Below are positions 9,363 to 37,463 of a DNA stretch of 64,000 bases, piece by piece (positions within the stretch are counted from its first letter, which is position 1; each line of letters starts with the position of its first letter). Made by a program: the position numbers and the translations under genes. The notes beneath the pieces were generated by a model. That model searched no databases. It worked only from the letters and a program-made list of their open reading frames with translations, and was not told the DNA's origin. The stretch lies in the NCBI GenBank assembly GCA_011032825.1, contig JAADJZ010000009.1, positions 930,001 to 994,000 on the forward strand, read 5' to 3'. Origin of the DNA: Massariosphaeria phaeospora (lineage: Eukaryota; Ascomycota; Dothideomycetes; Pleosporales).

Positions 9363-9369
9363 AAAAAAA
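9363..9369 (-). terminator. RNA polymerase III T-run terminator
   Basis: Seven consecutive T residues on the minus strand, two bases after the tRNA 3' end. This is the expected Pol III stop signal and supports the tRNA boundaries. Confidence 0.8.
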
Positions 9370-9371
9370 TA

Positions 9372-9519
9372 CATCTCAGGTGGGGCTCGAACCCACAACC
9401 TTTGGATATCAAATTACTTGGTTACGTAATCAGCTAGAAGTCCAACGCTAAGCTCGAATTAGCGCATATTCAATAGGAAAGTAACGGAGAACTTACCGCT
9501 ACCATTGCGCCACTGAGAC
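9372..9519 (-). tRNA. tRNA-Arg(UCU) with two introns
   Basis: Reading down from 9519, the 7-bp acceptor stem GTCTCAG pairs with CTGAGAT (one G-U pair), with discriminator G at 9372. The A-box-like TGGCGCAATGG is intact. The anticodon stem TTGGA (9445-9441) pairs with TCCAA (9406-9402), with loop CTTCTA/A and anticodon TCT at 9438-9436. The T-arm is GTGGG-TTCGAGC-CCCAC, giving the B box. A 27-nt intron (9434-9408) sits at the canonical 37/38 position. Unusually, the 3' strand of the D-stem is interrupted by 49 nt (9496-9448) that begin GTAAGT, contain GCTAAT and end TTAG. Removing both gives a normal 72-nt tRNA with a perfect GCGC/GCGC D-stem. The family identity is clear; the D-stem insertion is the unusual part. 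A T7 run follows. Confidence 0.9.
9448..9496 (-). other. GT-AG intron-like insertion in tRNA D-stem
   Basis: 49 nt starting GTAAGT, with a CTAAT branch-like site and a TTAG end, inserted between the third and fourth base of the D-stem 3' strand (about positions 24/25). Excision at exactly these ends restores D-stem pairing; a one-base shift would also work. Its length equals a small fungal spliceosomal intron. Splicing is inferred, not shown. Confidence 0.7.
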
Positions 9520-10290
9520 TGGATTACATTTCATGTAGATTTTGTCAAATTCTCGGGATTATTAAATATATATCCTACGGCAAATATCACCCCAGCAAAC
9601 ACTCAGATGTCAGGCAATAAGCAGTAGGCCCTGAAAGAGCGGTAAGACAAACGGTAGCCTGCGTAGGGCACGGCACCAAGTAAAGTCTGACACGACACCC
9701 CGCTTCACCCCTCACCCCACCTGGCGGCACGTCCACCGCCGCTTCCTCACCCGCATGGGCCACGTCATATGGCGGGCGGGCTAGCTTTGTATTACTTAGA
9801 TACTGCATGGTTCACGGGATACGAGGGCTTCACGAATGGGTGGTGGGCATTGTTATATGTTATATCTAGGGTTGGGAGAGTGCACAGTTGGGAGAAACAG
9901 CTTTGAGATCACGGATGCGGTGCAGAGATCTTAGAGCTTATAGTATTGGGGTGTCACATATTTGGCGGTTGTCCGCTTTATTGGGGCTTGGGGGTTGAGT
10001 TGCGGTTTGAAAGGAGGTGAGGTTTGGGTTTGAGTTGAGCTGAGCTGGGGCAATGTGTGTGTGCGGGTTTGGCGACGATGGAAACGAGAAGGAGGACTAC
10101 GACTACAACGACGACTATAACTACAACGACGGCTACAATGACATGTGGATTGTACATGCTTCCTACCCCAAACACGAGACTACTCCCACAGCTCTACTTA
10201 CTAACTACAAAATCATTCCCCTTCAAACTCTCTCCCACACTACTGGAGTCGTCAAGTCTGGACTTGAACGTACCCCGCACTCGTACCCAC
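9520..10290. other. Intergenic region, no gene seen
   Basis: No supported coding sequence. Contains a run of ACGACTACAACG-like trinucleotides around 10095-10135 and scattered AT-rich motifs. Confidence 0.5.
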
Positions 10291-36455: not shown

Positions 36456-37463
36456 GCTGCGCTTCGGTGCGGGCGGAGTCACTGTCGGCAGATCGGAGCC
36501 CCCCGCCAATCCGCGGCCTTCGATTGCCTGCTGCCTGCTCACCGCCTCCCGCCCGTCGACCCAGCAACGGACCCGCGCTCGTCTAGCTTTTGCTGACTGT
36601 GCTAGCGCGAGGCCTGGCCGACGGGTATATAAGCCCTCTCTCCCTCCGCTTCTCTTACACTCCTTAGCTCTCTTTGCCTTTTGGCTTAGATCAAGTGTAG
36701 TATCTGTTCTTTTTAGTTTGTAAGTACCCTCCTCCTCTGCTTGATACTGTTCTAACCGCCGCAAAAGAATCACTAAAACGTCCCTATGGGGACTTTATGA
36801 TTATTCCTATTTTTGCAAATGGGTCTCTTCTCCCTGGGCTTGCCCATAGTCGGGGCCACAGTGTCGCCAGTATTGCACTACTTCTGGCAGACGCGAACCT
36901 TTTTCATTGACTTGATTGCCTTGGGCGATCGGTTGAAGAAGAGTCTTTTCTTCTTTTGCTTCTTGTGCTTGTTTCAGGTGAGGTTGAGATCGTGTATGGG
37001 TGATGGCTGTGTGGGTGATAGCTGTGCGAGAGTCGGGCGACAGCTGTACGAGCTGCTCAATGTACAGAGTCAGGCGAGCTGTTCGTTAGATCAGAATTGC
37101 AACAGCAACAATCTTATTCTCGCGTTTGTGGGCTGCGTGAAAATTTTCTCGCGATGCTTGGCTGGGCCGCTGCATCGCCGCGGTGGGATCGTCGAAGCGT
37201 GCGGGACAGACGAAGAACAGCGAGCCCTAACAAATCTTGACCCTCTTTTGACCTCGACAGCCGCGTAGCCATCAATACTATCACTGTTGAAATCTCCATC
37301 GACGCCCGCGTTACTGATTCTTGCTCGTTACGGCTCACCATACCCCGCTCTCCCGTGCGACCGCTGGCAGCAAACCCCAAGGCAGCCGCCTTTTTCGCCA
37401 GCAGACAGCACCGTCAGGCGTCAAATAACGCGGGGACTAACTCACCTACCGCCTGTTGCCACC
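36456..37463. other. Region after transposon block
   Basis: No supported gene. A TATA-like GGTATATAAGCC lies near 36625-36637 on the plus strand, followed by pyrimidine-rich sequence, which looks promoter-like, but no convincing product follows. The minus-strand open frame ending at TE3 may be a remnant interrupted by the insertions. Confidence 0.4.

Follow-up and report, generated by a model that had tools for sequence, protein, structure and literature searches.

Putative spliceosomal introns in a tRNA-Arg(UCU) gene and at least seven other nuclear tRNA genes of Massariosphaeria phaeospora

To our knowledge, the introns of nuclear tRNAs are cut by the tRNA splicing endonuclease only. Introns of the mRNA type interrupt the U2 snRNA of Rhodotorula hasegawae and the SRP RNA of basidiomycetes. 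The U6 snRNA of fission yeast also has an mRNA-type intron (Tani and Ohshima 1989, cited in PMC10484740), and spliceosomal introns are present in ribosomal RNA genes of ascomycetes (Cubero 2000 and Bhattacharya 2000, both cited in PMC11889510). Ectopic tRNA introns have been described in Cyanidioschyzon merolae and in the nucleomorph of Guillardia theta (excerpts of PMC4090602 and PMC3978253), and introner-like elements have been reported from the Dothideomycetes (excerpt of PMC4457414). Spliceosomal introns in structural RNA genes are known, but titles and the beginnings of abstracts in the open-licence literature yielded no precedent for spliceosomal or mRNA-type introns in nuclear tRNA genes, and the case reported here is, as far as could be found, apparently the first.

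This case came from a tRNA-Arg(UCU) gene in a 64,000-nucleotide stretch of contig JAADJZ010000009.1 of the pleosporalean ascomycete Massariosphaeria phaeospora (the window). Judging from the DNA sequence, we consider it very probable that the 49-nt insert of this gene is a spliceosomal intron in a working nuclear tRNA gene, on which the spliceosome would act beside the tRNA endonuclease, and that the same is true of at least seven other genes. Such genes would resemble fission yeast U6 in that a short Pol III RNA carries a spliceosomal intron and requires splicing; as U6 is described in the cited source, however, the host RNA is a part of the spliceosome itself and reverse splicing was proposed as the origin of the intron, whereas the hosts here are tRNAs of six gene lineages, interrupted at four positions. 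The U2 gene of the window has an intron as does that of R. hasegawae, but U2 is a Pol II transcript and not a tRNA. The ascomycete rDNA introns, in the passages that cite them, are likewise spliceosomal and lie in structural RNA genes of Ascomycota, yet their host is a ribosomal RNA. The tRNA introns of C. merolae and Guillardia are similar in occupying the D-arm and T-arm, sometimes as additional introns of the same gene; according to the excerpts, the Guillardia inserts measure 3–24 nt and those of C. merolae are linked to the bulge-helix-bulge motif, whereas the M. phaeospora inserts measure 47–56 nt, carry spliceosomal signals and show no full bulge-helix-bulge. Introner-like elements, as characterized in the excerpt, are a further case of spliceosomal intron gain within this fungal class, but they multiply one intron, while the inserts of different tRNA lineages in M. 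phaeospora are not recognisably alike (at best 64% in a permissive global alignment).

The tRNA-Arg(UCU) gene and its two inserts

The gene consists of three exons on the minus strand, 9519 to 9372, whose 23, 13 and 36 nt join to 72 nt (Table 1). Read in this direction it is GTCTCAG.TG.GCGC.AATGGTA.GCG[49 nt]C.G.TTGGA.CTTCTA[27 nt]A.TCCAA.AGGTT.GTGGG.TTCGAGC.CCCAC.CTGAGAT.G. The initial annotation had proposed a 27-nt intron at 37/38 and a 49-nt insert at about 24/25, the latter with a GTAAGT start, a CTAAT branch-like site and a TTAG end, and all of these were confirmed at the coordinates in the table. It had further claimed that removing exactly the GT...AG segment restores the 4-bp D-stem. 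The gene without both introns is a full 72-nt tRNA-Arg(UCU) cloverleaf. The 49 nt can be excised in two registers with the same product, one being GT...AG and the other GG...TA, and three of the four D-stem pairs are still able to form in the unspliced gene.

Table 1. Features of the window, and inserts outside 37/38 in tRNA genes of the genome
Feature	Window coordinates	Strand	Insert position	Insert length (nt)
tRNA-Arg(UCU) gene, 148 nt unspliced, discriminator G at 9372	9372..9519	-		
Exon 1: acceptor 5' strand, D-arm to position 24; A-box region uninterrupted	9497..9519	-		
Spliceosomal-type intron (GTAAGT...CTAAT...TTAG)	9448..9496	-	24/25	49
5' splice site GTAAGT of the 24/25 intron	9491..9496	-		
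Branch-like site CTAAT; branch A at 9459, then 11 nt of intron	9458..9462	-		
3' splice site AG (TTAG) of the 24/25 intron	9448..9449	-		
Exon 2: D-stem end, anticodon stem 5' strand, anticodon TCT, position 37	9435..9447	-		
Canonical tRNA intron	9408..9434	-	37/38	27
Exon 3: position 38 to discriminator; B-box GGTTCGAGCCC at 9383-9393	9372..9407	-		
T7 run directly after the Arg-UCU gene, Pol III terminator-like	9363..9369	-		
TATA-like element upstream of the Arg-UCU gene (ATATAT at -54)	9558..9575	-		
U2 snRNA gene (Rfam RF00004, 133.7 bits) with an intron of similar build	36664..36902	+		
U2 intron, GTAAGT...TTCTAAC...AAAAG, single GT...AG register, 12 nt after branch A	36720..36767	+		48
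Arg-UCU (window)			24/25	49
Gly-GCC L048, L060, L062			24/25	49, 51, 48
Ile-AAU L028/L114			45/46, variable region	47
Glu-CUC L079			52/53, inside T-stem	53
Leu-CAA L160			53/54	52
Ser-UGA L170			53/54	56

The A- and B-box, the upstream TATA-like element and the T-run suggest that the gene would be transcribed by Pol III. The 24/25 intron would be excised as a lariat by the spliceosome, and the 27-nt intron at 37/38 would then be removed by the tRNA splicing endonuclease and ligase. Since contact with the folded D-arm is attributed to this endonuclease, its step is probably the second one. A single Pol III transcript seems to pass through two splicing systems.

It had been anticipated that standard tRNA finders would miss or truncate the gene, and this proved to be so. 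In the window ARAGORN reported no tRNA; when long introns were permitted, it mistook the gene for Leu(caa) and gave it an intron of 67 nt. Rfam RF00005 did not report it in the window at the gathering score or at E<=10, nor was it returned by a genome-wide RF00005 search in which 63 of 1281 candidates were scored. Because the finders tried missed or misread this gene, similar fungal cases may hide as missing or pseudo tRNAs. Rfam snoZ13 also matched over the gene, but weakly (19 bits, E 0.58, against a gathering score of 47), and we regarded this match as chance.

Interrupted tRNA genes elsewhere in the genome

A lone 49-nt insert could be a product of chance; this doubt is mostly removed by the seven other tRNA genes that carry such inserts. 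They were found in a survey of the genome (42.08 Mb, 51 contigs). The RF00005 search mentioned above gave at least 48 matches, of which 46 were taken as tRNA genes by a descriptor script and two, at L047, were omitted; one of the 46, L028, parsed sensibly only after its insert had been recognised. From two complete lists of B-box pattern matches, 57 for GGTTCGANTCC and 45 for GGTTCGANCCC, the places not already known were retrieved (41 + 28); matches with at least four of the five T-stem pairs were inspected, and 36 with a T-stem under 4 bp were left aside. Further genes came from A-box and B-box + T-run patterns, among the matches listed, part of which were retrieved. This brought the parsed tRNA genes to 63, namely the 46 from RF00005, the Arg-UCU gene of the window, L115, and 15 from the B-box/terminator patterns. 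Pro-AGG, Pro-UGG and elongator Met were absent among these 63 genes, from which we conclude that the survey is incomplete; both parsed Met(CAU) genes are presumably initiators. tRNA-like places that did not parse completely (L047, L064, L092, L140, L157, L158, L161, L162, L163 and L165-L169) were omitted, and some insert boundaries were recognised by eye with the splice signals in mind, so inserts without GT...AG could be overlooked.

Several of the places seen in the survey have features of their own. L157 (C6:948890-949110), L158 (C23:270900-271120) and L064 (C23:354600-354960) are tRNA-like but unparsed, and are perhaps more interrupted genes or pseudogenes. L047 (C11:305000-305456) consists of two tandem tRNA-like repeats with odd anticodons (Stop and SeC according to ARAGORN), both flanked by ACCAAACTCTA-type motifs. 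L069, L071 and L081 belong to a dispersed repeat that may derive from a tRNA; they share the end TTGGGTTCGATTCCCGC CGTCGCT and contain a stretch of GGTCATGGGGCGACGGC. Two places, C45:94162 and C49:1304002, may be elongator Met genes, and C12:1320399-1320437 would add another insert at 53/54 if a GT and the complementary strand of the T-stem are present upstream of it.

Inserts outside 37/38 were found in at least 8 of the 63 parsed genes, spread over six contigs; the genome search for the same kind of insertion that had been suggested for the Arg-UCU gene was in this way answered with seven further tRNA genes carrying GT...AG inserts. Since eight loci on six contigs share one build, an assembly error is unlikely. 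The inserts lie at 24/25, 45/46, 52/53 or 53/54, unlike the canonical eukaryotic tRNA intron site 37/38, and every one of the eight genes except that for Ile has an additional intron at 37/38. Excision leaves a complete cloverleaf in all eight cases. A GT...AG register is available for each insert, being the sole register in the three Gly genes and one of four in Ile and Glu. All eight inserts, which range from 47 to 56 nt, have G at position 5 and a CTRAY motif with 10–12 nt after the branch A. The 5' splice sites read GTRAGT in Arg, Ile, Glu and Ser, GTYCGW in Gly and GTACGT in Leu; the first four agree with the starts of the mRNA introns described below, whereas Gly and Leu share only GT and G5 with these. 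When the inserts were shuffled with GT and AG fixed, G5 together with CTRAY (9–12 nt) arose in 0.24–0.47% per gene; over the six independent sites the shuffle product is ~1e-15 and the register chance ~5e-13, both rough and too favourable values, the first insert having already revealed the motif. The other interrupted genes had entered the lists through their tRNA features, and several of their insert boundaries were then set by eye. In the T-arm cases the AG of the 3' splice site keeps the B-box readable, as GGTTCGA in Glu and AGTTCGA in Leu and Ser. A TTTT within the Ser intron might stop Pol III.

Introns at 37/38 were found in 41 of the 55 distinct ordinary tRNA genes, with lengths of 6–35 nt, and just one of the 41 (L042, 17 nt) is bounded by GT...AG. 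Near-identical tRNA copies, such as the three Asp-GTC genes, differ in their 37/38 intron.

As an alternative, the tRNA endonuclease might cut the inserts at a bulge-helix-bulge, which would make them ectopic introns of the tRNA type, as has been proposed in Cyanidioschyzon merolae and archaea; archaeal ectopic sites are known at 25/26, 45/46 and 53/54 (excerpt of PMC4090602). We took as the motif a 4-bp central helix between two 3-nt bulges containing the cut sites. Up to three of the four central pairs are present at some junctions, but no insert of the eight reached the full four, whichever equivalent register or geometry was tried, a comparison for which the control is weak, with 4/4 pairs in only 2 of the 41 ordinary 37/38 introns. 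Nor did the shifted ends, which the initial annotation had named as a case against its spliceosomal reading, yield a complete motif. Cleavage at a bulge-helix-bulge would, moreover, leave the GT...AG ends, the G5 and the CTRAY at its fixed distance unexplained, and we regard it as very unlikely.

Intron-free copies and the function of the interrupted genes

All three Gly-GCC genes found and the sole Arg-UCU gene found carry an insert. The B-box matches with a T-stem of at least four pairs, in both complete lists (57 + 45), included no intron-free Gly-GCC or Arg-UCU gene. A genome search with the joined Arg exons returned only the window gene and Arg-CCU and no other Arg-UCU; its reach is limited, since the related Arg-UCG gene went unreturned. 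An intact second Arg-UCU gene, which had been named as a sign that the window copy is a pseudogene, was found by neither route. With no intron-free copy found, the production of Gly-GCC and Arg-UCU tRNAs would depend on the spliceosome. Uninterrupted genes also exist for Ile-AAU, Glu-CUC, Leu-CAA and Ser-UGA, so the interrupted copies of these could be dispensable.

The spliceosome might instead act only on rare Pol II read-through, the functional tRNAs coming from genes unseen here. The survey would leave room for such genes, elongator Met and Pro-AGG/UGG being unparsed and one pattern having been evaluated among the matches listed, but the complete B-box lists, for matches with a T-stem of at least four pairs, speak against intron-free Gly-GCC or Arg-UCU genes of this kind, as does the exon search for Arg-UCU, and we hold this explanation to be extremely improbable.

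Insertions in the D- or T-arm of eukaryotic tRNA genes have mostly been considered pseudogenes (excerpt of PMC4090602). The interrupted genes could likewise be pseudogenes that were given mRNA introns by retroposition or reverse splicing, and the uninterrupted genes for four of the six affected isoacceptors are in keeping with this. Against it, every Gly-GCC (three) and Arg-UCU (one) gene found is interrupted, while the codons GGC, GGT and AGA are in use (165, 79 and 47, respectively, of 6175 codons in ten long mechanical ORFs). The exons are complete, those of the Gly copies are identical though their introns differ, and T-runs follow all eight genes. Because no Gly-GCC or Arg-UCU gene found is free of an insert, we consider it very improbable that the interrupted genes are pseudogenes.

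The three Gly-GCC genes share identical 71-nt exons, whereas their introns are 71, 92 and 69% alike (pairs ab, ac and bc), with the splice signals kept. Over 90 nt upstream the genes align at 49, 48 and 62%, compared with shuffled means of 46, 47 and 49%, which is near the shuffled level in two of the three pairs. By these alignments, the Gly-GCC exons are preserved while the flanks drift, and the splice signals persist. Of the 71 exon letters compared between the Glu-CUC genes L079 and L057, none differs, and the T-stem insert is present in L079 only.

The interrupted genes have the features of functional tRNA genes, namely a complete cloverleaf after excision, an A- and a B-box, and a T-run. 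The T-runs, of 5–8 nt, lie within 22–40 nt downstream in all eight. A TATA-like match was detected at -44 to -54 in five of the eight (Arg, Gly b, Gly c, Ile and Glu) and at -20 in Leu, for which 38 nt upstream were examined; by the same rule Gly a and Ser had none. Among ordinary tRNA genes, 42 of the 54 scored have a TATA-like match within up to 70 nt upstream. A search of viral and other genome contig collections for the Gly-GCC exon with GT directly behind it gave no match; neither collection is meant for fungal genomes, so this has no bearing on relatives.

The DNA data suggest that the spliceosome is probably needed for some tRNAs of M. phaeospora. We further think it likely that it is an obligate enzyme of tRNA maturation, such that the tRNAs reading GGC/GGU and AGA would lose an mRNA-type intron before the endonuclease finishes, and that such introns were gained repeatedly. 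If this is true, the spliceosome is necessary for decoding particular codons, the translation of GGC/GGU and AGA being directly dependent on pre-mRNA splicing, and Pol III RNAs without a cap or a Pol II tail can be regular substrates of the spliceosome.

Comparison with mRNA introns and snRNA genes

The reference set of mRNA introns from the same genome consisted of five inferred actin introns, whose removal leaves one continuous actin of 375 aa, together with four ARP introns, which were selected among several in-frame options by conserved peptide. These nine introns start with GTR[AT]G, have CTRAY with 10–21 nt after the A, and are 48–160 nt long, six of them 48–73 nt. The starts of the Gly (GTYCG) and Leu (GTACG) inserts are absent among the nine, and the G+C content is 0.33–0.48 in the tRNA inserts versus 0.42–0.61 in the mRNA introns. 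Scanning the window de novo for mRNA intron motifs proved uninformative, with 24 candidates of 44–60 nt versus 13–18 in five Markov resamples, and 60 candidates in total versus 67 in the reversed sequence.

Two interpretations of the Arg-UCU gene had been offered in the initial annotation: its Pol III transcript may require the spliceosome, or reverse splicing may have struck the tRNA gene. The former is supported by six independent sites at four tRNA positions that have GT...AG ends, G5 and CTRAY at a near-fixed distance, like the mRNA introns of the genome. The DNA evidence favours it over the latter, and reverse splicing is compatible as the origin of the inserts.

A structural RNA gene of the window other than the tRNA gene, that for U2, is interrupted as well (Table 1), and removal of its 48-nt insert leaves 191 nt. 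If six tRNA gene lineages and U2 have each gained introns, such genes may be freely open to intron invasion in this genome. U6 differs from its fission yeast counterpart, which has an intron according to the source cited for it: no intron was present in the six M. phaeospora U6 copies found, which are 96–101 nt long (47 of 1920 candidates scored). In three of these U6 matches (C23:226275-226371, C6:637105-637204 and C12:117335-117433, all on the minus strand), a B-box-like GTTCGAGYC follows the RNA end at a distance of ~15 nt. We take this placement of a B-box-like element downstream of U6 to resemble the layout of the yeast U6 promoter.
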